Source: Terramyces sp. JEL0728
Taxonomy: Eukaryota; Chytridiomycota; Chytridiomycetes; Rhizophydiales; Terramycetaceae
Assembly (NCBI GenBank): GCA_027603945.1
Contig: JADIIU010000170.1
Span: 1-24,247 of the forward strand
Length of the DNA: 24,247 nucleotides
Reading direction: 5' to 3'
Shown here: piece after piece, positions 2,259 to 24,247 of the stretch
Position numbering within the stretch: position 1 is the first letter of the stretch
Layout of the letters: each line of letters opens with the position of its first letter
Notes under the pieces: generated by a model
Seen by the model: the letters and a program-made list of their open reading frames with translations, nothing else
What the model was told of the DNA's origin: nothing
Databases searched by the model: none
Position numbers and translations under genes: made by a program

Positions 2259-2889
2259 TCAGTGACGTGCCTGTCTTCCACTTCTTCTAATGTCCAACAA
2301 AACATCAGCATCAATTTCATTGCCAGAAAACACTCCTCGGTACCACGCAGTGCCATCGAAAAACAATCCAATTGCCCAGGCAGCAAACAAAAAGAACAGC
2401 CAAGCAGCCAACCAATTGAAACTAGTACACCCATCAATCCAAGTTTGCAAGCTGCATCCAGTCCCAACTGAAGTCAATTCAACACCAAATCCACTGATCC
2501 ATCCAAGTGTCATAAACAAATCGCAAAACGTTTCAATAGTTAGAATTCTACGTGATGTCCAGTTCTTTCCAAACCATGGAGTAATGTACACGGCAATTAA
2601 CAGACCGCTGATAATTGGACTGACAATTGCAAAGAAACTAGGTTAATCAAGCTTACATCATGGCATTGTTTGTTGATTGTAAACCGTATTTCGATACTAG
2701 CATCGAGTTCTGGGCTCCAAGCCAGTAGTACGAAATAAGACTGAGAGCAACTTGGAAGAACCTGGCTGCAAACCTACCAGACTTGTCGATTTCGAAATTT
2801 GCAGTGTCTTTTACTTTACGAAGAGTTTGCTCGTAATCCCATTTCTTTGCCTTGTCCCATTTCTTTTGAATGTTTTTGAAACTGACCAT
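2259..2889 (-). CDS. MARVEL-domain four-pass membrane protein
   Basis: Exons 2889..2657 and 2637..2259 join across the 19-nt intron GTAAGCTTGATTAACCTAG (2638..2656) to give 203 aa, stop TGA. A basic, helical N-terminal stretch of about 45 residues (KNIQKKWDKAKKWDYEQ) is followed by four hydrophobic segments (around RFFQVALSLISYYWLG, FFAIVSPIISGLLIAVYI, FCDLFMTLGWISGFGV and FNWLAAWLFFLFAAWAIGLF) and a short tail. This order and the conserved WFG and Trp-rich last helix fit fungal MARVEL proteins of the Nce102 kind, which act in plasma-membrane domains. Two conserved-looking Cys flank the loop before the last helix. The family call rests on topology and general resemblance; the exact subfamily is uncertain. 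Confidence 0.75.
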
Positions 2890-2996
2890 TTTTGTTTGGA
2901 GAAACGCGTTCGTGAAAATTACAAGAGTAGATTAAAGAACCTGCAGATTAACCATTCGAAAGAACAGAGCAATTCTTCTTGATTATCAAAGCAAGT

Positions 2997-5900
2997 TTAT
3001 TTCAACGGGTTAATATAAACCACCAGCCCTTCTTTTTCACCACCAACGTCAAAACACTTGCTTAAATCAGTAACATCGCCGTCACGTTTTTCAAAATCAC
3101 TCTTCTTCATAATACGTAGAACTGGCACACGTCCTCTTCCGCTCTTCATTGCAATTACATTCACAACGATTCTGCTTGTTCCTAGAGGGAGAACACGCAC
3201 CAGCTTTTGTTTATAGCCAGCATAGAAAAAGTTGTCTGTTGCTTCAAAAAGCGTTACTAGTTCGGCAACATGTAGAGTTAGATTCTGGATTGTGTATTCA
3301 ATTACAAAGGGCTGCGCAATTCGCAGATTACCGGGTACCTTTGCATGTATACGCAATAGTTCACTAGGGATGTCCGGCTTGGGCAGGTCGATCAATGATA
3401 CACAATCGGCATTTCTAGGTTAATCAAGAATACTTGTTCCAGTTGATTTTCAGCTGTCCAACATCAAGTTTTGTAGCTTGGTGGAAAACGTCTACTTCCG
3501 CTTGGATTTTGTATACAACTGACTCTTTCTCATTTTTGTTCATCTCTCGAGTTTCACCACTGCCAAGTAGCACACACCTTTTATCAGAGACAATTTCTGT
3601 AGCTTTGAGAGTCACTTTGTCTGTTGAAACTAGTTTTATGCTGAATATCCATTCGAATAATTTGGTAGTTGTTTTTCCCGGACCGTATCGTTCAGGTATA
3701 GCTAAACAGCTCTGCTGTTTGTACTCGAACGACACATCAAATATATTATCCACGGTGATTGATTTCTCCTTGGACTCTTTCCATAGCCATTTGGTATCAG
3801 TTAAATCTACGGTTTCTGGGTTGCCTGGGTACGTATATGCAGTGACAATGAAATGCTTGATACCGGGTTTGTTTGATTTTAGCACCGTTTTGGATTGGAA
3901 TTCTTGTCCAGGCGCTACAAGTCCTACATCAATTTGAGAATCGACTGTGCAAGAAGGATCGATTTGCTTGTTTCCATCTCCGACAACACATTTCATCACC
4001 AAAACAACATACGCACTACCAGTTTCGTTCGATTTGCCTTTGAATGTAACTGGAATCTCTTGATCGGTGTACCCATTTTCAACCAGGGTCTCAAATTTGA
4101 TTTGCGGTTCCCGTTGTTCAACTCGCACATCTCTGCTTCCAGAAATACTGATAAACTTGCCATCTTGGTACCATCGCAGTTTCTTGTCTTGTAGTTTGAA
4201 AATCAAGGTTAATCCTTTTGAAACCACAAGGACTGTTCGAGCTTCGATGTGTAAATGGGTGGTTGGTGATAATGAGCTTTCTATAACAACAGTCTGTCCT
4301 TTTTGTGGTATCTTTGCTTCATTCTTGAAATATCCGAGTGCTGCATCACTGTATCCGTTGGGCATAATTGTAGAGTTGAATTCCGGCAGATTAAACTGCA
4401 CTTGGATTTCATCAATTTGAATTGGTTTACCCAACATTTTTAGTATAATTTGGTACTTTTGTTCGTTATTTACCTGTCCGTATCCGCTGTAAAATTGGAA
4501 ATCTACCTCAAGGAATTTTGTGATAGATTCCATATCTACCTGGAAAGAGCCTTCAGGTATTGGTAGCTCGATCCCACAGTCGGGATGTAAAAGTTCAACA
4601 GCACATTCAGCCATTGTCTTTGTATCGTTGATATTCCTAGCGCATTTGTATGTTTGGGCTAAAATATGTCCAAGCAAGCCAAACCACAACTCCTTGCGAT
4701 AGGTTTTAGATATCCGGTCGTAAAACTTGATTGACAAATCGTATTGATGGCTGTCCGAATATATCCGTGCAATTTCGGATGCAATAAACAGAGTCATTCT
4801 CGAATGTTTTTGTTTTTTGAATGCTTCATATGATTTTGACAGTAATTCAATGATGCTGCCCGGGAAATCGTAGCTTTGAAACTCTTGCATTTTCTCAATG
4901 ATGAACTCAGGCTGTCCTACCCCATCTTGCATTGTTAGAGTGCCATTGTATCTGATCCAGGCATCTTCCAAAGCTTTTGCTCCAAACAAGTAATAGAACC
5001 CACTGTGTTGCACAGTAAATAGTGTATTAACACTCGAGTACGGACCAAAAACAGTTCCGCTGGAGTTACCCATCCAATTATTTCCGCTTGTAGCAACACT
5101 ATTTAGCAACGAAAGAGCGGCATTGGCAGTACTTCCAGGCACAGGGTATGGTAACGGCAACTTTAGTTTTTCTACATATTCGCCAAAAGTTCTTGTTAGT
5201 CATCTTTTACTTGTATTGCAAGTGGATCCAATACCAGTAATAAAACGACCCCCCTCCTTGAACATTTACGAGATGCATTTGGTTGATCATATTGCCAGTA
5301 AATATGTAATTGGTAAAGAATTGCGCTTCAAAGCATGGGAAATCCTTTAAATGAAGCACATGTCTATGCAAATGATACAGGGCGTCAACAGGTTGATTCT
5401 GGATAATGAGTAACAATATAATCTACTTTAGAAACAGTTACTCTTGCACAAATAGTGTCTAGCAAAATGAAAATCTGCCTCCATCGCTTTGAAAACAAAT
5501 CCACTTGGGTTTCAGTTGGTTCTGGTATCATAATTTCCAGTAGATTCAAGTAACTGTTTTGGTAGTGCTTGATTGCTTGATCGTACTCAAACCGCGTTTC
5601 GCAGAAATATCCCAGTTTGAAATCATACCTGCGTTAGAAACACTTGCCTGGCATTCATACTGGTACCCGCCCCCATCTTTTTCTTTTTGATTTTCTTTTC
5701 CTTGTCCTTGGAATACGTGTTTGACAATTCGACCAACGGTTTTTGAAAAGTTAATTGATCTTTGTATGTAAATACTTGCGTCTTATCTAAATGGCACTGC
5801 TTTCTAAAGTTTTGCAGCCTCTCCTGGGTTTGCAGTGAATCTTGTTTGATGATAAACAGGACAGCGAATTTTGAACCTACACTGTGAGCCAAGATTCTAA

Positions 5901-6265
5901 ATTAACGAAAGGTACCGTTTCTCGTTAATTTGCTGGATTGTTAGTAAATCGTAGTCTTTTTCCATGTTGATTCCACCCAACGGATCCTTATCCTTCATCT
6001 CATACAATTCCGAAATGAAAAAACAGACATTTGCCAGGTGCTGTTCATGCTTTAAAATCCACTCGTTACTAATAACACCATCGGGGTATAGCTCAGTCCC
6101 TTCTTTATTGGGAGAAAGAGACTTGTATTTCTTGAATTGGTCGGTGATCTTGTCGATTGTGATTATGTGAAATGATTTGAGATCCTTGATTGCAGTGATG
6201 GCATCCCTGGTTAGTTGCGAATCTTTTTCTGGGAATAGGAATAGCAGTGGTTTATGAACCTCCAT
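2997..6265 (-). CDS. TRAPPC11: TRAPP complex subunit TRAPPC11 (foie gras/gryzun)
   Basis: Six exons (6265..5916, 5896..5648, 5628..5442, 5422..5211, 5191..3434, 3414..2997) joined by five 19-nt introns give 1057 aa, close to the animal length. TRAPPC11 belongs to the TRAPP tethering complex in ER-Golgi traffic. The N-terminus (KPLLFLFPEKDSQLTRD, then GVISNEWILKHEQHLANVCF) matches the start of the family. The foie gras helical repeats follow (NARYDFKLGYFCETRFEYDQ; TFGEYVEKLK; GFYYLFGAKALEDAW), then a long beta-rich gryzun region ending in a C-terminal domain (LPKPDIPSELLRIHAKVPGN onward). Start 6265 was chosen because the family homology begins there; frames upstream are closed. The second intron is GC-AG. 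The protein is not found in budding yeast but is common in other fungi. Confidence 0.92.
5629..5647 (-). other. 19-nt GC-AG intron in TRAPPC11
   Basis: The sequence on the minus strand is GCAAGTGTTTCTAACGCAG. Removing it joins MNAR to YDFKLGYFCE, which is family-conserved, whereas reading through hits TGA two codons later. The GCAAG donor, CTAAC branch motif and CAG acceptor are all in standard positions. It is the only GC donor among the introns found here. Confidence 0.88.
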
Positions 6266-6485
6266 GATTGGCTGTGAAATTTCGAAAGCAAATCTCAAAG
6301 CAATATAAAATCTGACCAATCTTTATTGGATCAACATCTGAATATTCGCTATATCCTGCATTATTAAGGATTAATAGTGATTGTTTGCTCTCTCGCCCAC
6401 AGTTTCTCTCGCTTTGCAATTATTGCCTGGAAAGAGGTCATTTACAACAAACACCACTCAGAATCAATAGTTGGAAATGTGTTTA

Positions 6486-7140
6486 TTAACCAGATCGCAG
6501 CTTGGCTAATCTCGCACCCAACTCATCATTCTCTTTCGCTGGCTGCAATTTGGCATCAGAAGCAGTTGGCATATTCATTTGCATTTCCAGTCCATTCTCT
6601 TCCGCGACCTGAGTTAAACCAAAGTACTTGTTGCATCAATTCATTCACTTGATCTCCAGGAGTAGTTATCGCAGTTGTCTGTCCCATACTATTCTCCATG
6701 TATTCTGTCTGCACATCCAAATCTTCGAATTGCTGTTCAAACTTATCCATAACTAGAGAAATCTCATTAATGAAATAGTACTTGTTCTAGGTTCATCGAT
6801 GACATTGCCTTCTCCATTCCTTTGACTACACTTGCCATTGACGAAGTAAGTTTCTTCATCGTGACTGCTGTTTGGACTCTGGAAGCAGTTGCGTCCACTC
6901 GAGATGCCAACCTAAATTAGCAAAACAAACCGAAGGAAATTCAACGATTCATTCTTTTTTCTAATAGCATTCGCTGCATAAATCCGTGCTCCATCCTGAT
7001 TCCCCTGCTGTAATGCCTTGGTTAATAAAACAAACTTTTTTCAGCTTCTGTTTTTCTGTAGCCTCATCTTTAGTTGCTTTCTTTGACATTCGCTCCAACT
7101 GCTTGGCAGTGAATTTCAAATTAAATAGTTGTTTTTCCAT
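6486..7140 (-). CDS. CHMP1: ESCRT-III subunit CHMP1 / Did2 (Vps46)
   Basis: Five exons (7140..7036, 7016..6931, 6911..6782, 6762..6628, 6608..6486) and four 19-nt introns yield 192 aa, the usual CHMP1 length. The protein starts [20 protein letters not shown], continues with the basic ESCRT-III helical core ([40 protein letters not shown]) and ends in a MIM1 motif ([13 protein letters not shown]), which binds the MIT domain of Vps4. Did2/CHMP1 regulates Vps4-driven disassembly of ESCRT-III at endosomes. Four introns in a 579-nt reading frame make this the most reliable place to see the 19-nt intron class. It lies 220 bp upstream of TRAPPC11 on the same strand. Confidence 0.96.
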
Positions 7141-7319: not shown

Positions 7320-9346
7320 TTAATGGTAAGATTTATCTCTCTTGATAAAAGTAACAAACTTTGGAGCGTCCAGGACTATCTGCCCAACTGCTTCGTCATC
7401 GGCAGTTTGTATGCTTTCACCTATGCGCACATTAAAGTCAAGTTTTGTCCACATATCAACTGTATCCATGGTAGTGTCAATACCAAACGCGCTTACATTT
7501 GTCTCGTTGACCATTATTGTGAAAAATGTCTTGTCTGTAACTAGTCGCACGCCTGGACCACGGATATCTGTAGAAAGTATCCATGGAATAAAGCCGCAGA
7601 TAGATAGAATTATCATTACCAGCTCAAAGGTAAAGAATACTGCAGATATTTGGAATCCAAGATCAGTAATATACAAGATCGTATATTCATCATCAATCAC
7701 ATTCTGGAGACAGCTAGTCCCACTTGAAGTGAACGTCCTTTGAACAGCACCCCGGAGAATTAATGAGAGAGTCGTCTCCATTCCAGGCTCTAATATGGAG
7801 GGATCCAGAGTAATCAGATTAGTTGTCATCCACCATAATAATGGATTCTGAGCACCAGGATATATCTGAGGCAGCGCAACGCCAGAAATTGTCCCGCCTA
7901 ATATATTTACCAATGATTCGTATATCCATGTAATATTCGCTTGGTTTCCAGTATTTACAACTGTGGCTAGCGCAGGAGCAATAGAAGCAGTAGTGCCATC
8001 TGTCATGAATTCGACCAGGATCGTCGCCTCCATGTGGTTATTGATACTAGTTACACAAACAGGGAAGGGAATATCTGCTGCAACGCGCTGTCCGCATATT
8101 TGAGTTCCAGTTAAAATACTGGTGACATTAATACTTTGCTCATCCACATATTTTACATAATTGACAAGCCCTGAAATATTGCTTAGATTTACGAATTGGG
8201 TGGCCAGTTGGCTTGTTACAGCAGGATCAACACCTGCAATTTCCATATCATCGGCAGCAATCGAGTTCGAGCAAGAGCAAGTAGACAAGAGCGAAGTCAC
8301 GAACCCGGCTCCTTCAATCGTCGTTCCATTATTGCAAGTATCCACCAGAGAAGGTCCAGCGATAAAAGTGGTGTTTTCAACGTCGTGCTCAGAACGTAAC
8401 ACACCAAACGAATTGCCAAAAACGACCTCTCCGATACCCATCTCAGTTTGAAGTGTCGGCCACAGCTTGTCAAATGGTTCTCCATCTTGGGAGTACAACG
8501 TACACCCCAAACTTGAATCCAGATATCTATAAGGAACATTGTACTCTGATGTAGCAATAATGAATATCAGCACGGGTGTAAATATCTTTATCAGCCATAA
8601 ATACGACAATTTTGAGAGAAACTTTCGGCATGGACTGCGGTACGATAAATTGCTCGTAAATGTGATTTTTTCAAATGGTGACGACTGTACAAACCCACAG
8701 GCCGCCAAACTATATCCACTCTTCCTTGTAAGCAAGTAACCAAAAATAGCTGACAGCCCATCATCCATTGCGCGAAAAGTCGCTAAATGTGTAAAGAACA
8801 TCCATAAGAGTATAAATACATCGGCGCCTTCTCTAACAATTGGCCCAAGGTATGCTATTACCAAACCAGTGGGCGAGTGAGCTTGGCAAATAAGAGAGAA
8901 AAATAGAATGTTTGAAGCCAGAGAAATGCCAACCCAAGCCATGTGTAATAACTTTCGATCTTTAAGCTCTTTCGTCACGGGTCCCCTGCTGGATGACGAT
9001 ACACTATCTCCGTATTGATTGATCGCGGTAGGTTTCTCTGGCCCTTCGTATCGATTCATCACAAGTCCTTTTCTTCCAGATTTATATGAAGTCAAGCTCT
9101 TTCTTTCATCTTTTTGAGCTTGATTAATGTAAAACAACCTTCTTCATCATCTTCATACTCTTGCTCGTATTCACCTTGAAATTGATCTTGGGTTTGAAAA
9201 TTAACTTCATTCTTAGATTTAACACTTTCGTCATCCATGGTATTTGACATTAGAACGCGTTTTTCATACTGTACCGGAATTATTGAACTTGGTGGATTAA
9301 ACTTTTTTGGCTCTGCTATTGCTGTCACGATATCTTTCTCGCTCAT
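7320..9346 (-). CDS. Large multi-pass membrane protein with Cys-containing ectodomain, family unknown
   Basis: Exons 9346..9139 and 9118..7320 join across a 20-nt intron (9119..9138, GTTGTTTTACATTAATCAAG) to give 668 aa. An acidic cytosolic N-terminus of about 120 residues (EQEYEDDEE) precedes hydrophobic segments near WVGISLASNILFFSLICQ, ADVFILLWMFFTHLATF and LWLIKIFTPVLIFIIATS. Then comes a long loop of about 270 residues with several N-glycosylation sequons and Cys (CNNGTT, CSCSNS, QICGQR), a final helix FFTFELVMIILSICGFIPWI, and a cytosolic tail of about 85 residues. I do not recognise the family; an externally exposed loop facing the environment or host is an inference from topology. The ATG at 9346 is the first in frame. 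Confidence 0.8.
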
Positions 9347-9519: not shown

Positions 9520-10751
9520 TTATTTATCAATCTTTCTACTCCTCAAGGTCATCTGAGACCGAGGAGATTCCACGACCCTTTTGGTGTACCACCTTTTTGG
9601 AGTATCTGGTAATTTTACCTCATTTCCAGGAGAATCTCCCATTGGCTTTCTAGTATTCCCACTGGATTCTAACTCTGCAGCCTCTTTTTTTACCTCTAAT
9701 GTATCGTCTCCGTCACAATCAGATTGGTACTTGAATAGTTCGGCCAGCTGATTCTTGAAAAAGGCACAGATGATTGCAGACAAGATACAAGCTGGTGAGA
9801 GATATAAAAGTGCAGGCTATGTAAAGTATAAACAACCTGAGCATGTCCAAACACATTTAGTACATACAAAGTAATAGATAATCCAATAAAGTATGAAGCC
9901 AAACACGAATAAAAATATGGTTTGGCAAAGTTCAGGCTTGTTTCTTTTGAATTGCCAAATGCATTGAACCGATCAAACCGGAGGCATAGTGCAATAAATA
10001 TTCCTGGAATAGCAATATCTCCCAGCCCTAGCAATGAAAACTGACCATTGTAAAAAACAAATTCCGAGATACTTTCCGGTAGCGTCCTAGGAAACAATAG
10101 TTTAATGGGTATATCAAGAGATTTTGCAACTGTTACCATGACATTATCTCCGAATGTTGCCTGTGACCCAAATACCCAGTAAATGTCGTAGAAAAACAAC
10201 AGCGCAAGCAGCACCATTCCCGTTTTGAATGTATTCAACTTCATCATTTCCAGACAGAATATAGCAAGCGATTCTGCAATAATATTTGACAAGATCCAGT
10301 TCCTGGTATACGCAAATAATCCTGTAATTGCAAATGAAATCAACACTGTAATCATGTGGATTGTCCCAAAACTAAATGAAAATATCTCAGTGTTGTCTGT
10401 AGTCAATTTCAAGCACAAGCTCTGGTCTAGTTCAATACCAGTAAATCCAAGTAAGTTCAACATCGCACCAAGTTAATTGAAAGTACTTGTTTACAGCATA
10501 CGCTCCAGCAACCATTATGTAAGCAGTTAAGGTGTAATTCAAGATATCGGGATCAAAATATGTAATTATCATGTACAGTGTCAGCAATGAAAGTGAACTT
10601 GCGACTGGAATCCACATTGCATCGTATGTTGTCAAGTACTCTTCTTCTTCCTGCGTTACTTTGCGCTTACTGTTTCCGTTAAGCTGACATGGCTTCCAAA
10701 GTATATTGCGACGAAGCAACTTGAAAATAATCCTGCTGTGAAAAGCAACAT
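9520..10751 (-). CDS. SPP: Signal peptide peptidase (presenilin-type aspartyl protease)
   Basis: Four exons (10751..10671, 10650..10487, 10467..9837, 9816..9520) give about 390 aa. Both catalytic aspartates are present: FFYDIYWVFG and LLGLGDIAIPG. The QPALLYLSP motif is recreated exactly at the last exon junction. SPP is an ER intramembrane protease that cleaves signal peptides left in the membrane. Exon 1 supplies the first helix (MLLFTAGLFSSCFVAIYFGS). Introns are 20, 19 and 20 nt, but the middle one ends in GG rather than AG (see separate entry). The C-terminal ~70 residues are polar and charged with Ser-rich, basic stretches. The start codon is the first Met after an in-frame stop and lies 29 bp from the WDR60 start on the other strand. 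Confidence 0.93.
10468..10486 (-). other. Apparent 19-nt GT-GG intron in SPP (or an AG-to-GG base change)
   Basis: The minus-strand sequence is GTACTTTCAATTAACTTGG. Donor, length and TTAAC position match the CHMP1 intron GTACTTTGGTTTAACTCAG, but the last dinucleotide is GG. The downstream frame has TAA inside this stretch, and no nearby AG restores it with the normal branch spacing. Removing 19 nt keeps the SPP frame. A 40-nt GT-AG alternative (10458 down to about 10419) is arithmetically possible but lacks the usual YTAAY placement. Confidence 0.6.
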
Positions 10752-10780: not shown

Positions 10781-12693
10781 ATGCTCACTCCAAAAAATCA
10801 AGAAGTAAACAGAGTTAATCCAGAATCCGTTTAAACCTGCGTTATTATCGAGAGAGAAAACCCCGGATTACTCGTACGAGCAGGATTTTGAAGTATTTTG
10901 TTCTAACTTAGGAATACAATGAGGATTTCGAAGAGTATTCAGAAACCAGTAACCACTCAGAGCTCAACCGCGCAATGTCAAGAGAGAACGACTTGGCACT
11001 GATAAGCCAGCTGAAACCAAAACGAGAAGCAACTAGCAATAGCACGGAATTACCCACACACCAGATGAAAGACCTCAAGGAACTTCAACAATCGGCTCAA
11101 AAGGAAAAAAACAAACTCAAACTAACCGACAAGCAATCTAAAAGACAAAAAGACTTATCCAACCTCGTTCAGCTAGATTTCGTAAATTATGATTTGTTTG
11201 ATCTAAACCCAATGAACGAGTATGAGCTGTATATTAGAAGCTACGGATCGCAAAGGACGAATCAAGTAAATATTCAGACAAATAACGATAACCAGAACAC
11301 TGAATGCCAAACAGATGATTGGTTGGTGGTTGATAGGTGGACACAAGCACCACCGCACCAGCTAATAGAAACAAATACCGAGTATCCGCAATTACCGTGG
11401 CTAGAAAGACCGAAATCAACAGAAAAACATAAAGTAGGAAAACGCTTGACTGGGTTTTTGGAATCAGCTGGTCAATTAGTTGAAGCTATACTACTAGAAA
11501 ACGAAACTTCCGAATACAAAGAATCAGTGCTAAATTTGAATGATGATTTATTGAAAAACTCAATCAAGTTTAAATCCCCTGAATTTATTAATGCGCCAGT
11601 TAGCCAAATCCTGTTCTTGGATTCACTATCAAAATTAGTTTGCATTGTTTACAGTAATGTCAAGACTAGTTTAAATCAGGTTAAAACTGTTATAGCGTTA
11701 TGGCGGATAGGCGATCCTAAAGTATCAAAGTAAAACTCTACTAACCAGATATCTAGTATGCTATCCAGAAATTGCATGCATTTATAATCCACCAGATTTA
11801 CCGTCAGTTATTGTTGGAGGGTCAAGGGATGGAAGCTTGCAGATCTGGGACTATAAGAATTCTGAAACGTTCCTGTTTGAAAACACTACTACAATCTGGC
11901 CAAGTGCGATTACAGACGACTTGGACGATAACCATAAACTGCCAATAATAGATTTATTACAATATTCGTGCCAGCGTAATTCATTCAGGATTTCTTCGGT
12001 AGATCAAGGAGGCATTATGCAATCTTGGGTGGTGATTATTGAAAAAAGCAAGATTGAAGTAGTGCCTAGCGATAGATGGAAGCCGCCGCCATTAAAGTAA
12101 TTCTTATTTAAAAAAGACTAGAGTTTCCTACTGAACACTATGTGAAATCTGCAAAAGTCTTGCCTTCACAAACACTGCTACTAGGAAGCGACTATGAAAC
12201 AATTTATCATTACGACAAACATCAGAGCAAACTCTTTCCACATCAATTCACCCTACACACTCACGATGCAGTTATAAACACAGTCACCTGCCTCTCCACA
12301 TCACCATTTAAACCAACCATGTTTATAGCAGGCTACGCAAACGGCACAATCGCACTGTTCAATTCAGATATAGCCGCATCTTTAGCGACATGGGAAATTG
12401 AAAATGAAATAGTAGATATTTTATGGTCAGTCCATCGACCTGCATTATTCTATGTGATTGACACAAAAGGGATACTGTATATTTACGACTTGGTAGATAA
12501 TTTTAGTGATTTTACACTTGATTTTCAGTTATTTACTACAGTTAAATGCTTTGCTTTGGCTGATCGTGAACGGAATAGTTTGGGCTTGGGATGTGTTGAT
12601 GGTGACGCTTACTTTTTTGAACTTGACTCTTCGTTAGTCGAATCTATAGCTGACGAAATCAAGGAATTCGATTATCTGATTCCAGTAGAGTAG
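10781..12693 (+). CDS. WDR60: WDR60, dynein-2 intermediate chain (intraflagellar transport)
   Basis: Five exons (10781..10804, 10824..10892, 10912..11729, 11749..12096, 12117..12693) with introns of 19, 19, 19 and 20 nt encode 611 aa. The first exon is only 24 nt. Family hallmarks: the acidic aromatic repeat DYSYEQDFEEYNEDFEEY, then the diagnostic block DFVNYDLFDLNPMNEYELYI followed by RSYGSQRTNQVNIQTNND. TQ-containing motifs (NIQTN, ECQTD, RWTQAP) occupy the region that binds LC8-type light chains in homologues. The C-terminal half holds WD repeats (VIVGGSRDGSLQIWDYKN; MFIAGYANGTIALFN). It acts in retrograde intraflagellar transport, so the organism should build a flagellum. It is shorter than the animal protein, mainly at the N-terminus. 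Confidence 0.93.
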
Positions 12694-12781: not shown

Positions 12782-13233
12782 TCACAAAGAATGATGAGCA
12801 TAATTTTTTTCAATGTACTCTTTAAAAGTTTCGTCGTTACATTTCGGTGTCCATCCAGTAGAAAAAGATTGGAAATCAAACCGAGATTCAAGGTCGTCCT
12901 GATAATCAACATTCAGAGTGATACTATTCTCCTTTCTGCGTTTCTGAACTCTATTTTGCTTGATCTTGAAATCGATATTTGCTATTTCTGTCAGCCCCTA
13001 CATTAGGATGAAATTACTTGGAAATGCCGCTTGACTTCAGGAGATTCGTTCTTCCACCATTCCGCAGCTATTTTACTTATTTCGCTGCTTTGCAGTAGGC
13101 CGTGCCTGTCAACAATCATTTTGTTGACATGTGCTTTGTACCTAAAGAAAGAGTTTATAGGCCGTTTAGGAGTAGCCTGTTGTTTTTTAGGAGAGTTAAT
13201 TATAAACATATCCGTTCCTGGGATTTTAGACAT
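12782..13233 (-). CDS. MATA-type HMG-box transcription factor, copy 1 (one intron)
   Basis: Exons 13233..13018 and 12997..12782 join across a 20-nt intron (GTAATTTCATCCTAATGTAG, 12998..13017) to give 143 aa, stop TGA. The HMG box (PKRPINSFFRYKAHVNKMIV, then SSEISKIAAEWWKNESPEVK) resembles the fungal MATA_HMG/Ste11 class that includes mating-type and sex-locus regulators and binds the minor groove. A basic patch (QKRRKE) follows, and the C-terminus FSTGWTPKCNDETFKEYIEK is shared with the neighbouring paralogue, probably as an interaction or activation tail. The start is the Met of MSKIPGTDMFII, aligned with copy 2. It is convergent with WDR60 at 88 bp. Confidence 0.92.
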
Positions 13234-13630: not shown

Positions 13631-13694
13631 TGTTACAGCTTTAATAGTATTGCTACAGCTTCATGTTAGTATTGCTACAGCTTCATGTTAGTAT
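13631..13694. repeat. Short tandem repeat, 22-bp unit
   Basis: Two identical copies of TGCTACAGCTTCATGTTAGT plus AT (13651-13672 and 13673-13694) follow a diverged 20-bp first copy (13631-13650). It lies in the spacer between the HMG genes, near the 3' end of copy 2. Confidence 0.85.
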
Positions 13695-13806
13695 TGCTTT
13701 ATATTATTACAATATGAACTCTGCCGTTAATTGAGATTTGTTTCTTAAATTAGGTAACTACGGCCAAGTCTCTTATTGAAGATAGTGGTAATGCAAATAG
13801 AATATA

Positions 13807-14268
13807 TTAAGAATAATTTTTTTCAATGTACTCCTTGAATTGTTCGTCATTCATAGTGGGAGACCAGCCCGTCGAAAACGAAGTAAAATCAAACGAATCC
13901 AGCTCATCCAGCGAGTTGGAGTTGAGAGAATAATCACCACTCTGAGTTGATTCCAGATCGAAACTCTTTCTACCAATAGATTCATTGTCAGAACTACTTT
14001 TTCTCTTTTTGTTCAACTTGCTGTTCTTGTATTCCATGTATGCGATATCGGTCAAGTCTTTAAAGTGGTTTTTGACGCTTTCAGGCTCAGATTTCCACAT
14101 TTCAGCGGCAATTTTCGATATTTCGCTACTCTGGATTTGTCCGTATTTTTGTATGATCTGGGTTTGTACATGAGATTTGTAGCGCATGAATGCATTTGGA
14201 GGTTTTTTAAGAGCAGCGGGCTTTTTAGCTGGGATTATTATAAACATCTGCGTCCCCGGTATTTTCAT
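13807..14268 (-). CDS. MATA-type HMG-box transcription factor, copy 2 (intronless)
   Basis: A single exon of 153 aa, starting MKIPGTQMFIIIPAKK. The HMG box (LKKPPNAFMRYKSHVQTQII; SSEISKIAAEMWKSEPESVK) lines up with copy 1, as does the C-terminus (FSTGWSPTMNDEQFKEYIEK). The middle contains a Lys/Arg patch (NKKRKSS) and a Ser/Asp-rich linker longer than in copy 1. Where copy 1 has its intron (HFQ/GLTEIA), this copy reads HFKDLTDIA without interruption. Same strand and tandem orientation indicate local duplication. Members of this class often specify mating type; that role is inferred here. Confidence 0.92.
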   Translation of the reverse strand: MKIPGTQMFIIIPAKKPAALKKPPNAFMRYKSHVQTQIIQKYGQIQSSEISKIAAEMWKSEPESVKNHFKDLTDIAYMEYKNSKLNKKRKSSSDNESIGRKSFDLESTQSGDYSLNSNSLDELDSFDFTSFSTGWSPTMNDEQFKEYIEKNYS

Positions 14269-14849: not shown

Positions 14850-15383
14850 ATGAAAGCAAAAAACCAAAGATCATACACATTACCAATTATTGGTCTGGTA
14901 GCACTCCTAGGTACACTCCACTAACAAAGCCCTCTACTTTTTATTTGTCCCATCGTCAAAACCAATCGAACCAGTACAGACTAAACACTGGACAAAAAAA
15001 GTACTAAAGGAAGGAGACGGAAAGACGTTTCCTGTAATAGGAGATGTAATTGTAATGGATTATACCGGAACATTAGAAAATGGCGACGTATTTGATTCGT
15101 CTAGAGCGGCTGGTAGATCGCCAATCAAAGGAGCTATAGGAGTAGGACGTAAGTAGACGTTAATCATAGGGTTTATTAGAGGTTGGGATGAAGGTTAATT
15201 TCAATTAATGCAGGTGTGCTTTCAATGTCACTTAATGAGCATGCGGTTCTTACTATTGGGGCTGAATTTGGATATGGAAAGAAGGGATTTGGGAAAGTTA
15301 TACCACCGAATTCCACTTTGATATTTGATGTAAACTACCGTTAATTTCAGGTTGAATTGTTGGAAATAAATCCGCAGTTTTAG
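14850..15383 (+). CDS. Membrane-anchored FKBP-type peptidyl-prolyl isomerase
   Basis: Five exons (14850..14910, 14930..15148, 15170..15193, 15214..15329, 15351..15383) with introns of 19, 21, 20 and 21 nt encode 150 aa. The N-terminus MKAKNQRSYTL followed by PIIGLVALLALYFLFVP is a signal anchor or signal peptide, and the rest is one complete FKBP domain. Active-site residues of FKBP12 are visible: DYTGTLENGDVFDSS, the GRFIRGWDEG loop with its Trp, FGYG, and IPPNSTLIFDVELLEI. It should assist prolyl isomerisation in the secretory pathway. No ER retention signal is seen at the C-terminus (INPQF). Exon 3 is only 24 nt, and the signal-anchor helix spans the first junction, supporting that splice. 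Confidence 0.93.
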
Positions 15384-15581: not shown

Positions 15582-15651
15582 GAAACTTTGGAAATCAGCT
15601 GATCCAGCATGTGAAGGTCTAAAATCAGCAAAAAAGTTTGAATCATAAAAA

Positions 15652-16570
15652 ATGGCTCAAAATTACGACGCTGTAAGAAAAGAGATTGTAGCAATGTAAT
15701 ATACTTTAATCGTAGCTTAAACAAACCAGATTGGGATGACGGCTCTCTTGGTCCAGTTTTCGTCCGTTTGGCATGGGTAATGATTTATTAATTCTAGGTA
15801 ATAAATAATTAATAAATAGCATGCTTCTGGAACTTATGATTCCAAGACTAAAACCGGTGGTTCAAACGGGGCCACAATGAGATTCAAACCAGAATCATCT
15901 GATGGTGCCAATGCTGGTTTGGAACATGCTAGGTAATTGAAATTAATGAAAGAGCGTTCTTGGAGCCAATTAAACAAAAACATTCTTGGATTTCTTATGC
16001 TGATTTATGGACTTTGGCTGGTGTTGTTGCTATCGAAGCAATGAATGGCCCAAAAGTTCCATGGAAGGGAGGAAGAAGCGACGTTCCGCCTAAGGTAGCT
16101 CAAACTCAAGCTGCCAAAGTTATTCCACCTAGTAATCCATGTTTAACGTAGATGGAAGATTGCCTGATGCAGCTCAAGGTGCGCAGCATATCAGAGATGT
16201 CTTTTACAGAATGGGTTTCAATGACCAAGACATTGTAGCTTTATCAGGTGCACACTCTCTTGGAAGATGCCATACTGACAGATCTGGATACTCTGGGCCA
16301 TGGACCCACACTCCAAACCGTTTCAGTAACCAATTCTACAGATTATTACTAAATATTGATTGGAGAGAAAAGAAATGGGATGGGCCAAAGCAATACGTTG
16401 ATCCTAATGATGAATTAATGATGCTTCCATCCGATATGGCTCTGATTTGGGATCCTAAGCTCAAGCCGTATGTTGAATTGTATGCCAAGGACAAGGAAGC
16501 GTTCTATAAAGATTTCGCAGCTGCCTTTGCCAAGATGTTGGAATTGGGAGTTACCAGACAAAAATTATAA
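15652..16570 (+). CDS. CCP1: Cytochrome c peroxidase-like class I haem peroxidase
   Basis: Five exons (15652..15695, 15716..15776, 15820..15932, 15953..16131, 16152..16570) encode 271 aa. Distal-side Arg, Trp and His are in FVRLAWHASGTYD (rebuilt across the tandem intron), the proximal His is in [12 protein letters not shown], and the Trp of [17 protein letters not shown] occupies the position of the radical Trp in cytochrome c peroxidase. The ending ([25 protein letters not shown]) is typical of fungal enzymes. It removes hydrogen peroxide. It starts [12 protein letters not shown] with no mitochondrial presequence, so a cytosolic form is likelier than the classical intermembrane-space enzyme. 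Introns are 20, 43, 20 and 20 nt. Confidence 0.95.
15777..15819 (+). other. Tandem intron: two complete ultrashort introns back to back
   Basis: The intron between the LAW and HASG codons is 43 nt. It splits exactly into a 21-nt unit (15777-15797: GTAATG, then TTAAT, then TCTAG) and a 22-nt unit (15798-15819: GTAATA, then TTAAT, then AAATAG). The join CTAG|GTAAT is a perfect acceptor followed by a perfect donor with no exon between them. It may be removed in one step or by two successive splicing events through a zero-length exon. Confidence 0.85.
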
Positions 16571-16913: not shown

Positions 16914-19900
16914 ATGTCCAAGAAACAGCAAATAAATCCTGGCCCTCTTAGTTTTATAACAATAAGCTGGCTAACACCACTGCTCCGCCAGGGAAAACAA
17001 AAGCCTCTCACCAAAGACGATTTATACGAATTGAACGAACATGATAAATCAGAGCCATTGTCGCAGCAATTCGAACCGTTCATGAAGCAGTATAAGCTGA
17101 AGCGGGAAGGCAAAGGACCAGAGCCATCGTTATTTCGGGCAGTCGCAAAGATCATGTCAAAAGAACTGCTCTTTTCTGTAATTTGTCTCTCAATTACCAT
17201 CGCATTAGGTCTGTATATCCCAAAAGCTCTTGAGCAGGTACATTTTACTAATCCAGGTTGTAAATTCAATCGACCCGTTCAATGTGGACCCGCTATGGAT
17301 AAACAGCGGTGTCGGGCTTGCATTCATTTACTTTGGAATGCTACTATTCAATACCATATTTACATCCCTCAACAACAATATCAACAGAAAAATCTCTCAG
17401 AAATCTAATGCGATCATGACTGGTGCAATCTACCAGAAATCATTCACGCTTTCCTCAAAAGCAAAGACAGTAACATTGATTTAATTTAGAAATTTAATGA
17501 AGGAAGGATCATGAACATGGTTAATGAAGATGTACAATCAGTCACTAATGGGTTGCTGATTATTGGTCAAGTTGTACTATTGCCTATTCAATTTGGGCTG
17601 AATATCTATTTTATTTGGGGATTGGTTGGATCTGCATTCTTGGCTGGCGCTGGTATCTTGGGTGCCATCGCACTGTCGACAGCTGTCCTGATCCCATTCC
17701 TAAACAAGTACATTGGCAGAATGATCAAAGCAAATGATGCCAGACTGGCAGCAATGCGCGAATTGTTTTATGGGATCAAAATCATCAAATTGCAAGCTTT
17801 GGAAGGTTATTTTAGAGACAAAGTTGCCAAATTCAGAGGAGAAGAAATTGAAAACTTGAAAAAGTTTATTTCAATCTTGTGTATCTTTATTGCTCTGCTC
17901 TTTTCCTCACAGACTTTGCTTACAGTCGCTACTTTTGCTGTCTATGCTGTCAGAGATGGAAACAAGATGAATCCAGGCCGTATCTTTGCAGCATTGTCGT
18001 ATATCAATGCAATTGTAGGAAGCTTAAACCAACTATCATTCACCCTCAGCTCCGTTGTGCGTGTCCGCAAATCTCTGCTTCGTATCCATGAATTCTTGTT
18101 GGCTGACGAATTGGACGAAAAAGATGCATTATTATTCAACAATGCTGTAGACTCAAACTTGCCAGCTATCAAGTTGGACAATGTAACTTGGAAATGGGAA
18201 GACTTGGATGTCATCAAGGAAGAAATTCGTAAAGAAAAGGAACGAAAAGGCGGTCCGCCAAAGGAAAAGAAAGAAGAAAAGCCAAAAGGCAATGTTCAAT
18301 CCAGTGAACCTCCAAAGAAGTCCATGTTTAGTTTTGGCAAGAAACCTGTGCCAGAAGAACCCAAAGAGGAAAAAGAAGAACGAAAACCTCCGTTCCATCT
18401 AAGAAATATTACGCTAGAAATCCCAACCGGTAAATTGGTAGGGATCGTTGGTCAGATTGGAAGCGGTAAATCTTCATTCTTTTCTGGGTTAATCAACGAA
18501 TCTGAAAGAATTGAAGGTGACTTGAAAATCAATGGGTCAATCGCCTTTTGTTCTCAACAACCTTGGATCTTGACTGGTACAATTGAAAAGAACATTATTT
18601 TTGACCAAGCAGTTGATGAAAAGAAACTACAAAATGCTGTTGCAGTATCTGGATTAAGAGATGATTTGAAATTGTTTAAAGATGGACTTAAAACTGAAAT
18701 TGGTGAAAACGGAATCAACTTATCCGGTGGCCAAAAGACCAGATTATCATTAGGTGACCTTGTACTAATCTTAGCTCGCGCTATTTACGCAAATGCCGAT
18801 ATTTATTTGCTAGATGATCCTCTTGCTGCATTAGACTCTCAAGTCGGCAAATATGTCTTTGAAAATGCCGTAAAGACTCAATTATCACAAAAGACCGTGT
18901 TCCTTGCTACACACCAGCTTCACTACATGCAACAGGTGGACCACGTACTGGTTTTCAATGACGGTTACATTGTTGAGTCTGGGTCGTTTGATGATTTGAT
19001 CAACAAACCAGACGGTAAACTAAAAGAAATGCTGGAATCGTACAAGTTTGATGAAAAGGAAGGAAACGACGAAGAAAAAAAAGTAATTGAAAAGCAGATT
19101 GCGTCTGGCGGGGCAGTTGTTGACGAAACTCAAGATTTCATTGAAGCTGAAGATAAGAGACAAGGGCAGGTTAAGGCATCTGTGTACTTTACTTATCTGA
19201 AAGGGTACAATGGGCTTGGCAAACCAATTGCTATAGCCATTGCTGTTTGTGTTACTATTGCTGCCCAAACTTTGAATCCGTGGTGGCTGTCTAGATGGAC
19301 TACAGACGCTTCTCTACCTGGATTCCATGACACCACAATGTACCTGACTGTGTACACTGGAATTGGGCTTGCAAATACTATCGCGAATATCCTCTTTATC
19401 TCCTTGTTCTTTTTTGCTGCAATCACTGCTTCATGCTACTTTCACGATCAAGCACTGGATGGACTTTTGAAAGCGCCAATGGCGTTCTATGATCGCAATC
19501 CAATTGGAAGAATCATCAATAGAATGAGCACTGACGTTGAGGCTCTGGATAACGGAATTGTTGGTGTATTCATGACTACTATTTTCACTGTTGCTTCAAT
19601 TGTTTCTTCTACTGTGTTGATTGTACAAGGAAGTTGGTACTTGTTAAGTAAGCTTGTAGCTAATGATAGTCGGCCTCGTTGTCCTGCCAGTATTGTTTAT
19701 TGGACTGTTTAATATGTACAAGCCGGCCAACATTGAATTGAAAAGATTGACATCCACTTCCAAATCCCCACTAGACTCGCACATTTCTGAAACCCTGACT
19801 GGATTAGCAACAATTAGGGCTTACAGGGTAGAAACTTCATTTATTGCCAAACAGCGATTATTGATGGATGACGCTCAAGCACCATCTTATATTTTCCAAT

Positions 19901-20991: not shown

Positions 20992-21123
20992 ATTAATTTC
21001 TCGTGCGCTTTATTTTACTTGTTGAATTTGGATTCTAATAAATAATTCTGCAAACAAACCAGATCAAGTGTGAGTATATACAGTGCTGCTGAATTAAAAT
21101 AAAGCAGGAAATAGAACACTAGT

Positions 21124-22306
21124 TTATTGAATGGCACAATCCTTCTTTTTATCTTTGCTGCTACTGGTTGATTCAGTACCAACACGCTCATGCCCACGAG
21201 CAGTCCTCTCCCGCTCATCAATCTGCTCACTACGCTGAATCTGTGCTTCCTCGTAATCAAACTGCTGTTGCAGCTGTCTCGCAAGTAAATCGTCATTCCC
21301 AGTCCCATACTCTTGAAAATCATAGTTGTAGAATTTACAGTCCCCGTCAAGTACTAAATCCTGCCATACTATATCTTCGTCAATGTATCCTTCGTCAGTT
21401 ACTAGGCAGTATAGTTTGTTTTCGTTTCTTGTCAATACACTGAAATGGTTGTTGTAGAAAAAGACACATGGTTCGTGGATTGTTACCAGTAAAGCCTCCA
21501 TGCCCGCAAGTGTCAGTTGGCCTTGTTGCAAAAACTCTCTGCACACCAATCCCTCGACCGAATCTTTAATTCCTTCTTCGACAACCTGAATCAAGTATAA
21601 TTACCTTGTTGTAGCATTTAAGATTGCTGATGACTTTATAATATTGCTCCTGTGGGTCTATTACCCATCCGTGGTAGATTTGTATTCGAAGCAATTCAAA
21701 CGGCGATAACAAATCAGTATATTCTATATGTATACCGTCAAAGTAGATATTTACATCCATTCCATACTTTAATTTCGGCAGTACTTGTAGTGTATCATCC
21801 AGTATCTTTTCATCATTCGCGTTTGTTATTTCTATTGATAGAATGTACTGACAGAGTAGATTTAAAAGATCTTCTAGTGACAGGTCTCGGTTGATGTCAA
21901 TACGGTTTGCTAGTGAGAGTAAGTTTGCCAGTGCTAGTAGTGGACATGGGCCGTTTTCATTTTGCAGCAATATACACTTGTTTGGTGCAATTTGCTTGCA
22001 CTTGAATTTCTCAGTGTCCTTATTTGCTGTACATTCCGTGGATTGGGCAGGAGCAGTATTTACAGTATCTGTTTGGATTTCAGCTGGTTGAGAGGGTGCT
22101 TGTACTCCAGGCTGATCTTTGACTGCCGATCCATTAACTGTAGGCTGCGTTTCCGTTAGTTGACCTGGTCCTGTATTTGCCGCCAAAGATTGTTCGGTAT
22201 GCTGAAATTCTGCGAGTGGTTCTGGAACGGCATTTTCCGTGTTATCGCTTTGCTCTCTAGGCAATTCCTGGATAACTTTCTGGACATTTTGGTTTTCAGA
22301 TTGCAT
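21124..22306 (-). CDS. MINDY-family deubiquitinase (FAM63) with C-terminal CaaX
   Basis: Exons 22306..21605 and 21585..21124 join across a 19-nt intron (GTAATTATACTTGATTCAG) to give 387 aa. The catalytic Cys is in CILLQNENGPCPLLALANLL and the catalytic His in CVFFYNNHFSVL, as in MINDY-1/2, cysteine proteases that trim Lys48-linked ubiquitin chains. About 110 N-terminal residues are Gln/Thr/Pro/Asn-rich and probably disordered. After the domain, the region LLARQLQQQFDYEEAQIQRS resembles the ubiquitin-binding helix of the family. The protein ends KKKDCAIQ, a basic stretch plus a CaaX box with X=Q, which would favour farnesylation and membrane attachment. Start 22306 is the first in-frame ATG; an upstream exon is possible. 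Confidence 0.92.
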
Positions 22307-22620
22307 CTCGAATGGATAAACTTTACTTGATAGAGCTGCAAGGACAGCTTCTGCTTGAACAATCAAATACTAAGACCAAGTTGGGCGAATTTGTTTATCC
22401 GTATCTGTATATAGGGTAGGAAATATTTTAATCTCAGGTAAATATTAGCTGATCAAGAAACCACAAGATTCAAGGCAAGAAGGAGCAATTAAAAGATCCA
22501 ATAGTAGTCTTGCCATCAAGAACAGTAATTTATGAAAAAATAATCTTTAAATCCAGACCAGAATTCATAATAAACAAGTAGAATTTTTTACCTTACGTAA
22601 GCAAAAAAGTTTAACAAAAA
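22307..22620. other. Divergent intergenic region, MINDY / methyltransferase
   Basis: It is AT-rich and has no supported gene. It contains a 23-nt candidate intron next to the MINDY frame (minus strand, donor GTCTTAG, acceptor TTCAAG near 22354-22376), which would extend the N-terminus, but no upstream ATG accompanies it. Confidence 0.45.
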
Positions 22621-23500
22621 ATGATGCACAGTGTCAATTACACTAGAGTTAAATCACACTACCATTCACTGTTATCTCAGCATTACACTTGGACGTTTGG
22701 TGGGTCAAATAAGCAGAGTAACAACTACAAGGTGCTTTCGCAGTACTTGCAAGATGGGCAAGGCAAGGTAGCTGTTGACTTGGGATGTGGGTCAGGCTTC
22801 CAATCAGTCCCTCTAATGCAGCTAGGTACTCTGTAATTAAACCAGGCTACCATGTATTCTGTGTAGATTCATCTACTCAACTATTGGAAGAATTGCAAGA
22901 GCATGCACCGACAAAAAATTACACTCTGGTAGAAACAGACATGCTATCGTACAAGCACAAAGCAGATGTGGTTGTTTGCATGGGAGATTCAATTACGCAC
23001 TTGGCTAATCTGGATGAAGTGGAATTATTATTAAGGAATGTATACGATATGCTCGATGGCTTGTTTTTTATTTCGTTTAGGGATTTAACTGTGGAAATGT
23101 TTGACTGTGATAGGTATGTAATTTTCATCTCAAATCACGTCATTTTCGGTTGTTTTGCAAGCATTCCCGATTGATTGGGAAATGAGTAATGTCTAGAGAC
23201 AGAACACATCTAATGCTAGGTTTATTCCAGTAAGGTCAGACGAACGCACGGTATTCACCTGTTTCCTAGAATGGAAGAGTAGTGGTAATGGCTGCCTCGT
23301 AAAAATAACAGACTTGGTCCACGTCAAAAAAGGGATTGGTAACTAAACCTAACCAAGGCGCGTGGGAACTGTGTACTAGTTGGTATGAGAAGCTGGGTAT
23401 TTCTATGGAATGGCTGAAGCAGAAAGGGTTGGAGATTGGGTTTACTGTTCTGGATGAAGGGCAGGACCAAGGAATGGAAATGATAATATTCAAGAAATAA
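22621..23500 (+). CDS. Class I SAM-dependent methyltransferase
   Basis: Four exons (22621..22825, 22846..23113, 23220..23338, 23358..23500) with introns of 20, 106 and 19 nt encode 244 aa. SAM-binding motif I is VAVDLGCGSGFQSVPLMQLG, motif II VFCVDSSTQLLEELQEH, and the strand-4 region is ADVVVCMGDSITHL. The later region, DRFIPVRSDERTVFTCFLEW, is a pattern I associate with small-molecule or unassigned methyltransferases of this fold; the substrate is unknown. The exon joins are supported by the conserved motif continuing across each intron (LG/YHVFCVD; CDR/FIPVRS; KGIG/AWELC). Two Met codons in tandem open the frame; the first is used here. Confidence 0.9.
23114..23219 (+). other. 106-nt outlier intron in the methyltransferase gene
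   Basis: It begins GTATGT and ends CTAATGCTAG, with the standard branch-to-acceptor spacing, but is five times longer than its neighbours. The interior can fold: CATTCCC (from 23161) pairs with GGGAAATG around GATTGATT, allowing one bulge. No C/D or H/ACA snoRNA boxes were found. Confidence 0.8.
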
Positions 23501-23609
23501 TGCCCTTTTTCTTTTTGATTCCGAGTCTGTGAATTGTCAAAAGTGTTATGTGTAACGCTCATCAAAAATTGCTTCAAGAACAATTCCATTTATATACAAG
23601 TACAACATT

Positions 23610-24247
23610 CTAAGTACGCCTTGCTTCTGAACAAACACCAGCAGCGCAAGCGCAACACAAGTCTTCTCTATGTGGAGCAGTTATCTGAGCTTTTTCTTCT
23701 GGTTTTCCAGGCAGTCGTAGCCCCAAATGCAAAAGTAGAAAATATTTCACTCTTTGAATGTAAATATCTGTATCCAATTCTGCAATATTGATCTTGTTGC
23801 AAACTCTGCATTTTTGATTCCATACTCTTACACAAAACTCGTTCTTGTTTGTGTATATTTCTATGCAAATCTTTCCACTCTTCCAGCTGATTTTCTTTTT
23901 CTTGTGTTTACAAGTGAATGTTCCAACAACGCATCTTTGCACAGGTCGAGCATTTTCAAATACCTTGTAATTCAATGATATCGGTTGATCCTGTTCTATT
24001 ATCAATTCCATGGCGGCTTGAATACTCAAAGAATGGTAAAACGTATATTCTCGATTAGGGCCTGTTTCTGTTTCTGGTCCATTCCATTTCTCCAATTTTG
24101 CAATATTATTTTCAATTTCTTTTTGGATTCTCTCTCTTTTTTTGATCTCTAGACGTTAACTTTTACTTTTTACCTTCTTGCTTTCTTCTATCATTCTCAA
24201 TACGCTGACTTTCTCTTTCCTGCTGTTGCGCTATCCTGTTATTCTCA
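23610..24247 (-). CDS. 3CxxC-type zinc-finger protein, 5' part beyond the window
   Basis: Exons 24247..24167 (open at the edge) and 24148..23610 are joined by an 18-nt intron, GTAAAAGTTAACGTCTAG, the shortest in the window; only this join keeps the single open upstream frame. The N-terminal visible part is a highly charged helix (AQQQERESQRIEN; KKRERIQKEIENNIAKLEKW), probably coiled coil. Then comes a zf-3CxxC/RTP-like domain: ISWKSGKICIEIYTNKNEF, QKCRVCNK, and the closing CCACAAGVCSE. The first knuckle reads FTCKHKKKK, so its usual second Cys is missing or replaced by His. Related domains occur in receptor-transporting proteins and in many fungal proteins of unknown role. Confidence 0.85.

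Follow-up and report, generated by a model that had tools for sequence, protein, structure and literature searches.

The window analysed here is a whole contig of 24,247 bases (JADIIU010000170.1) of Terramyces sp. JEL0728, a fungus of the Rhizophydiales, Chytridiomycota, and it belongs to a genome assembly that totals 15,016,339 bases across 231 contigs. Thirteen genes of the window harbor 35 spliceosomal-type introns, of which 34 are only 19–22 nucleotides (nt) long: 17 of 19 nt, 11 of 20, three of 21 and three of 22, beside a single intron of 106 nt. An earlier note on this DNA had claimed that nearly all introns are 18–22 nt long, with 36 introns in 13 genes, 34 of them in that range and half of exactly 19 nt. 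The near uniformity, the number of genes and the share of 19-nt introns all stand, whereas the total is now 35; the apparent last intron of that account (18 nt, ending at 24166) was left out, as a 25-nt reading also fits its acceptor. Twenty-four introns come from a gene finder that gave lengths of 18–22 nt a bonus (13 of 19 nt, nine of 20, one of 21 and one of 22) and 11 were placed by hand (three in CHMP1, one in FKBP, three in the peroxidase gene, two in CTF8 and two in the methyltransferase gene). Their positions, with the basis of each, are as follows.

2638..2656, minus strand: 19-nt intron of the membrane protein gene 2259–2889; gene finder, frame and motif only
3415..3433, minus strand: 19-nt intron of TRAPPC11; gene finder, within a Gryzun match (27 bits, barely above cut-off)
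5192..5210, minus strand: 19-nt intron of TRAPPC11; gene finder, within the Foie-gras_1 match
5423..5441, minus strand: 19-nt intron of TRAPPC11; gene finder, within the Foie-gras_1 match
5629..5647, minus strand: 19-nt GC-AG intron of TRAPPC11; gene finder, frame and motif only
5897..5915, minus strand: 19-nt intron of TRAPPC11; gene finder, frame and motif only
6609..6627, minus strand: 19-nt intron of CHMP1; gene finder and hand model, gapless CHMP1B alignment over the junction
6763..6781, minus strand: 19-nt intron of CHMP1; hand model, gapless CHMP1B alignment
6912..6930, minus strand: 19-nt intron of CHMP1; hand model, gapless CHMP1B alignment
7017..7035, minus strand: 19-nt intron of CHMP1; hand model, gapless CHMP1B alignment
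9119..9138, minus strand: 20-nt intron of the membrane protein gene 7320–9346; gene finder, frame and motif only
9817..9836, minus strand: 20-nt intron of the signal peptide peptidase gene; gene finder, within the Peptidase_A22B match, splicing yields HAQPALLYL
10805..10823, plus strand: 19-nt intron of the WD40 gene 10781–12693; gene finder, frame and motif only
10893..10911, plus strand: 19-nt intron of the same WD40 gene; gene finder, frame and motif only
11730..11748, plus strand: 19-nt intron of the same WD40 gene; gene finder, frame and motif only
12097..12116, plus strand: 20-nt intron of the same WD40 gene; gene finder, frame and motif only
12998..13017, minus strand: 20-nt intron of the HMG-box gene 12782–13233; gene finder, junction at the extreme end of the HMG_box match
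14911..14929, plus strand: 19-nt intron of the FKBP gene, upstream of the domain; gene finder, frame and motif only
15149..15169, plus strand: 21-nt intron of FKBP; gene finder, within the FKBP alignment
15194..15213, plus strand: 20-nt intron of FKBP; gene finder, within the FKBP alignment
15330..15350, plus strand: 21-nt intron of FKBP; hand model, within the FKBP alignment
15696..15715, plus strand: 20-nt intron of the cytochrome c peroxidase gene; hand model, spliced protein equals deposited P0241
15777..15797, plus strand: 21-nt intron of the peroxidase gene; hand model, deposited P0241, abuts the next intron
15798..15819, plus strand: 22-nt intron of the peroxidase gene; hand model, deposited P0241, zero exon after the previous intron
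15933..15952, plus strand: 20-nt intron of the peroxidase gene; gene finder, peroxidase alignment and deposited P0241
16132..16151, plus strand: 20-nt intron of the peroxidase gene; gene finder, peroxidase alignment and deposited P0241
17238..17256, plus strand: 19-nt intron of the ABC transporter gene; gene finder, outside the ABC_membrane stretch shown
17470..17489, plus strand: 20-nt intron of the ABC transporter gene; gene finder, outside the ABC_membrane stretch shown
19648..19669, plus strand: 22-nt intron of the ABC transporter gene; gene finder, within the ABC_membrane match
21586..21604, minus strand: 19-nt intron of the MINDY deubiquitinase gene; gene finder, within the MINDY_DUB match
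22416..22437, plus strand: 22-nt intron of the CTF8-like gene (start 22312); hand model, weak Ctf8 match (26 bits, cut-off 22)
22438..22457, plus strand: 20-nt intron of the CTF8-like gene; hand model, weak Ctf8 match, abuts the previous intron
22826..22845, plus strand: 20-nt intron of the methyltransferase gene; gene finder, within the Methyltransf_25 match
23114..23219, plus strand: 106-nt intron of the methyltransferase gene; hand model, frame only, sole exception in length in the window
23339..23357, plus strand: 19-nt intron of the methyltransferase gene; hand model, frame and motif only

Removal of these segments restores conserved motifs or reading frames in CHMP1, FKBP, signal peptide peptidase and the peroxidase, as had been claimed, and 21 of the 35 junctions are covered by an alignment to a Pfam family or to a solved structure, or by a deposited peroxidase. 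The spliced CHMP1 protein is among the strongest cases, since it matches CHMP1B at 1.1e-60 with a gap at none of the four junctions. The signal peptide peptidase reaches 217 bits against Peptidase_A22B over residues 27–241, with its junction at residue 209. In the cytochrome c peroxidase gene, removal restores LAWH, as in the yeast peroxidase, and the spliced product agrees at 271 of 271 residues with P0241, a deposited protein of Terramyces sp. JEL0728 from which all five introns are absent; the depositors' own model thus already removes tiny introns in this gene. The same peroxidase matches that of Boothiomyces macroporosus at 95% (among the 120 of 6878 relatives listed). In a Prp8 tree, the query falls within a group of 21 rows with full support by the Shimodaira–Hasegawa-like approximate likelihood ratio test (SH-aLRT), in which all named rows are fungi, and it stands beside the chytrid Phlyctochytrium (93).

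Intron lengths, which the earlier note had proposed to tabulate genome-wide, were counted on 224 kb made of the window and ten 20-kb stretches chosen by their place on contigs C1–C10. The gene finder relied on coding statistics trained on long open frames, and its baseline run required only a GT start and an AG end, with a flat length prior, any intron of 12–250 nt and no splice-site model. This run predicted 220 GT-AG introns, 90 of them of 19–22 nt (28, 46, 11 and 5), with a sharp peak at 19–20 nt that was seen for GT-AG alone. Bins of 15–24 nt held 97 of the 220 GT-AG predictions, compared to 12–22 of 196–231 for six wrong-dinucleotide controls (TG-GA 16/225, CT-AC 22/217, GA-TG 17/231, GC-AC 12/201, GT-CA 19/222 and GG-AG 14/196), none of which showed a peak. 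All ten outside contigs have short introns, with 3–15 introns of 16–24 nt per 20 kb and without a splice-site model. When such a model was added to the flat length prior, 146 of 201 introns were of 19–22 nt. The short introns are real, and they are confirmed on all eleven contigs sampled by place, i.e., the window and the ten others.

Further tests were made on 269 kb, comprising the window, the ten stretches and 14 loci out of the 24 retrieved along with searches; six of these loci (L002, L004–L008) were fetched by an intron-like pattern and eight through searches for splicing parts. Eight overlapping or near-duplicate loci (L001, L003, L034, L036, L038, L039, L041 and L044) and two U6-like repeats (L030 and L031) were omitted. 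This sample underlies the tests of anatomy, motif spacing, back-to-back introns, hidden introns and density, and longer introns with donors such as GTATGT. The motif-spacing test used no gene models: GTAA, k free bases, YTAAY, one or two bases and YAG were searched on both strands, with the reversed motif as control. At k = 6–8, 96 matches were observed vs. 6 in the control, and spacing elsewhere was at background (k = 0–5, 5 vs. 7; 9–40, 40 vs. 34; 41–100, 64 vs. 78; 101–200, 122 vs. 132; 201–300, 142 vs. 150). A first pattern, GTAW...TGAYTAAC, had given 8 matches vs. 12 in its reversed control and hence no evidence either way, because the motif was too narrow, being drawn from two window introns. 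Overall, 258 introns were predicted in 153 complete genes, a density of 1.47 per kb of coding sequence. Candidates for hidden stop-less introns of 21 nt numbered 7 within predicted coding sequences vs. 11 in reversed ones, so that at most a few exist. At a loose cut-off, exons contained 55 intron-like sequences, fewer than any of 60 synonymous shuffles (75.5 ± 8.4), and at stricter cut-offs 23 vs. 26.6 and 8 vs. 5.8; avoidance of such sequences in exons is not claimed.

The anatomy of the introns was read from a run on the larger sample with the splice-site model on and an intron ceiling of 40 nt, which predicted 239 introns, 220 of them of 18–22 nt (3, 70, 109, 26 and 12) and 19 of other lengths. 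A YTRAY-like branch site is present in 219 of the 220, with the branch A at nt 14 in 109, nt 15 in 89, nt 16 in 17 and elsewhere in 4. The donor G and the branch A are therefore 13 or 14 nt apart in 198 of these 219 introns, very close to the figure of about 13 nt given before, and the branch A is followed by 5 nt in 128 and by 6 nt in 72, i.e., it lies 5–6 nt from the end in 200. As the splice-site model spans the last 8 nt of the intron, the branch motif is partly selected for in this run; independent support comes from the introns predicted without that model, in which the motif is also visible, and from the motif-spacing test. Among the 146 introns of 19–22 nt of the splice-site-model run, the donor is GTA in 140, with the otherwise common G at position 5 in only 28. 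The AT content of the short introns is 70%. GC-AG introns starting with GCAAGT were found in TRAPPC11 (19 nt), Prp18 (20 nt, by hand) and SF1 (21 nt), and their removal restores GNAAWPIGVDSVGIHER in Prp18 and KIIETATSVPEG in SF1, which we take to be the motifs of the human proteins. At the TRAPPC11 site (5629..5647), a 13-nt GT-AG piece was chosen by the model until GC donors were allowed.

These segments are almost certainly U2-type spliceosomal introns, nearly all of which have shrunk in Terramyces sp. JEL0728 to a common length of 19–22 nt. Each holds a minimal but complete set of signals: a 5′ GTA with weak preference beyond it, YTAAY with its A at nt 14–15, and a YAG end 5–6 nt further on. 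Their removal would fall to the major spliceosome, acting through intron definition and forming a lariat loop of just 14–15 nt, and the lower limit of length would be set by the closeness of donor and branch point that can be achieved in the active site.

The earlier note had proposed to inspect splicing parts for changes, among them the U1, U2 and U6 small nuclear RNAs, Prp8 and SF1. The U2 RNA was found (140 bits) with the canonical branch-recognition sequence GUGUAGUAUCUG unchanged, and the six splicing proteins searched, namely Prp8 (774 bits for one domain), Slu7, Prp18, Isy1, Cir_N (Cwc25) and SF1-HH, are all above cut-off; the loci of several of them themselves carry predicted tiny introns. 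Slu7 and Prp18 are dispensable when branch and acceptor lie close, and their expected loss failed to appear, both being encoded. The gene finder gave Slu7 a 35-nt intron, and this version was used in the protein-family match; an alternative 20-nt reading adds five residues and presumably fits the human protein better. Cwc25 starts with MGGGDLNLKKSWHP and thus keeps its GGG plug. The Cwc25 gene region is present in two copies, L040 (C30:109075) and L041 (C33:23034), with the same predicted protein, which are perhaps haplotypes kept apart in the assembly. In addition, L030 (C199) and L031 (C111) hold, from position 1501, a U6-like partial core, ACAGAGAA, at 27 bits, below cut-off; as it is near-identical at both places, it is probably a repeat and not U6.

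Several points weigh against the spliceosomal interpretation or its generality. All junctions are deduced from sequence and homology, and for 14 of the 35 window introns the evidence consists of the reading frame and the motif. Rfam search of the genome gave no match for U1, and covariance, pattern and DNA-match searches gave no gene for U6, although such empty answers show nothing. That the plug of Cwc25 is intact makes it less likely that the active site must be cleared in general. A third predicted GC-AG intron (39 nt, C5 4827–4865, starting with GCTATT) is off-pattern and was set aside as not credible. At about 10473–10491, the frame of the signal peptide peptidase gene is broken; no GT-AG solution was found for this break, which may be an odd intron or a sequence error, and in the latter case it would be of the kind expected if assembly or sequencing insertions and frameshift errors had been taken for introns throughout. 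Errors, however, would not recur on every one of the eleven contigs sampled by place with the same donor, branch site and acceptor at constant distances, and no two of the 220 sequences of 18–22 nt are identical, which makes this explanation extremely improbable. We give equally little credit to a removal of the segments from DNA, as in the elimination known from ciliates, or to their translational bypass: uniform, short, AT-rich segments that restore frames would be expected in both cases, but not GT-AG or GC-AG ends with a branch-site motif, an intact U2 and encoded factors for the first and second steps of splicing. Moreover, we know of no split between germline and soma in chytrids.

A length of about 20 nt is below the size that fungal spliceosomes are usually thought to handle, and this would favor an RNA endonuclease and ligase route, as for HAC1 or tRNA introns. 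Such a route is nevertheless very improbable in view of a consensus that includes a branch A at a fixed position and of GC-AG variants that start with GCAAGT, a trait of donors read by U1. It is also unlikely, if less remotely so, that the spliceosomal introns form two classes, one of them a sizeable set of longer introns of the ordinary kind that the gene finder handles poorly. Longer introns do exist, at 106 nt (23114–23219) and at 62 nt in Isy1, both with GTATGT donors, and the joint left by the 62-nt intron recurs in the Boothiomyces protein. The remaining 55 of the 201 predictions of the splice-site-model run, with its 250-nt limit, are scattered over 29–250 nt. Against this, GTAA-type motifs stay at background for spacings of 9–300 nt, the longer predictions of the flat-prior run spread like the controls, and the combination of GTATGT, a branch site and YAG at 9–140 nt shows no excess (19 observed vs. 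22 in the control). Over the same distances, GTATTT (90 vs. 27 in reversed controls) and GTAATT (57 vs. 28) are in excess; both hexamers, however, outnumber their reversals in any case (364 vs. 143 and 298 vs. 222), which explains the excess in part or in whole.

Among the shrunken spliceosomal introns, some directly follow each other. In the peroxidase gene (15777–15797 and 15798–15819) and in CTF8 (22416–22437 and 22438–22457), two complete introns are paired with no exon between them, and the protein requires both to be removed; zero-length exons are outside the reach of the gene finder. Among 362 candidates, a fixed-score scan recovered one zero-gap pair (peroxidase) and one pair separated by a 1-nt exon (Isy1), whereas the 162 candidates of the reversed control had none at gaps of 0–6. 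The scan missed the CTF8 pair. The simple reading is a successive removal in which the first step recreates the second donor; alternatively, each pair may be a single intron, of 42 nt in CTF8 and 43 nt in the peroxidase gene. In the Isy1 gene (G000:C35, about 112,250–112,400), a stretch of 70 nt right after the first 34 coding bases (eleven residues) may be a single 70-nt intron, as the Boothiomyces Isy1 protein would imply, or may hold two or three tiny introns separated by exons of 1 and 3 nt.

Ultra-short introns are a known phenomenon; what is new, relative to the open-access literature searched, is their occurrence in a fungus. According to the passages available from these sources, they measure 18–21 nt in nucleomorphs, 15–16 nt in heterotrich ciliates and 16–17 nt in mikrocytids (PMC10245619), 21–29 nt in Nyctotherus and 20–33 nt in Paramecium (PMC2633312), and Trichomonas has a few introns, the shortest of 23 nt (PMC12316389). 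None of the sets described in these passages is fungal, in line with the claim that such introns were not known from fungi. Likewise, the titles and abstract openings of the open-access literature searched describe none in a fungus, and the intron passages of three further papers are silent on ultra-short introns (PMC13391722, PMC5364385, PMC7466969). Mean intron lengths have also been compared across eukaryotes (PMC11649378).

As far as the passages available go, the chlorarachniophyte nucleomorph resembles Terramyces by its narrow length range and its richness in introns (>800 in about 300 genes; PMC10245619), but it is a relict, highly reduced endosymbiont genome, whereas Terramyces has a 15-Mb fungal genome that kept the second-step factors. 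Stentor coeruleus, with introns of 15–16 nt whose branch A is in most cases nt 10 or 11 (PMC9505925), shares with Terramyces uniform, tiny and AT-rich introns, GUA donors, a conserved U2 branch-recognition site, Prp8 and an altered N-terminus of Isy1, which is not conserved in Stentor. Its introns are nevertheless shorter than those of Terramyces (19–22 nt, branch A at 14–15). Furthermore, the same source lists Slu7 and Prp18 as not found and the Cwc25 GGG as lost in Stentor (PMC9505925), whereas Terramyces encodes both factors and kept the plug, and its branch motif is strong where Stentor has no strong consensus. Mikrocytids are similar in their narrow length range and conserved motifs, but they are parasites with 224 introns and 17–19 spliceosomal proteins identified (PMC10245619). 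Paramecium and Nyctotherus, like Terramyces, have short introns throughout, though over a broader length range, and are ciliates. Within the kingdom, the introns of other fungi are GT-AG with a branch site as well, but those of Cryptococcus, with a mean of 63 nt, are about three times longer, and chytrid introns reach a density of 3.93 per kb in two species (PMC8476143), compared to 1.47 per kb of coding sequence in Terramyces. Shorter introns at a lower density suggest that introns may have been lost as well as shortened in the Terramyces lineage.

The N-terminus of Isy1 is the one clear oddity among the splicing parts of Terramyces, and it was absent from the list of the earlier note. The protein starts with MAPKTLAQKQ instead of the usual MARNxEKA, and the usual motif has no match in six frames of three Isy1 loci. 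Boothiomyces sp. JEL0838, the best relative among those listed, has the same start. We sorted the 120 relatives listed (of 374) by patterns of our own: 72 have [RK][NS]x(1-2)EKA, three a close variant, 36 are not judgeable as they start at or near an internal Met (including Batrachochytrium salamandrivorans, of the Rhizophydiales), and nine are others. Four of these nine look truncated by our judgement (P0131, P0136, P0145 and P0151), and five have a different N-terminus, namely Boothiomyces, Globomyces sp. JEL0801 (the mildest), Kappamyces sp. JEL0680, Gorgonomyces haynaldii and P0178. The four named are all Rhizophydiales, and the motif is kept in six chytrids of other orders (P0128, P0129, P0130, P0133, P0134 and P0140) among the matches listed.

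Outside Stentor, the Isy1 N-terminus extends into the active site, where it touches the backbone of the intron, according to the passage available (PMC9505925), and its replacement is suggested to give room for a tight lariat loop. It is conceivable, though rather doubtful, that one branch of the Rhizophydiales had its Isy1 tip, which hardly varies in most of the relatives listed, replaced as introns shrank to ~20 nt, convergently with Stentor, with loop size and tip constraining each other. If this were true, the response would be graded, a loop of 14–15 nt altering Isy1 only and one of 10 nt also losing the Cwc25 plug. Globomyces, Kappamyces and Gorgonomyces would then be predicted to have ultra-short introns and the MARNEEKA chytrids to be without them, and adjacent introns separated by a zero- or one-letter exon would be spliced out in succession.

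Ultra-short introns have hitherto been discussed as genome erosion, in parasites and relict nuclei, and for ciliates. Terramyces, with all six searched splicing proteins and with varied Isy1 tips among its relatives, offers a natural comparison for the limits of minimum introns. The better-studied members of the chytrid phylum have, as far as is known, ordinary introns. Gene finders and read mappers often reject introns below 20–30 nt, so that genes in such genomes may be mis-called.

Some other features of the window deserve mention. A minus-strand tRNA match at 1–55, cut by the contig end, reaches 33.8 bits with the Rfam tRNA model, and none was reported by ARAGORN with bacterial settings. 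The WD40 protein encoded at 10781–12693 has a long N-terminal part and is not named WDR60 by family models; by eye, it resembles the dynein-2 intermediate chain WDR60, which would suit a flagellate zoospore. Finally, two adjacent HMG-box genes on the minus strand (12782–13233 and 13807–14268) have in common the start motif IPGTxMFII and similar C-terminal ends and are possibly a mating-type-like pair; a short direct repeat, TAGTATTGCTACAGCTTCATGT, was seen by eye between them, at about 13650–13700.

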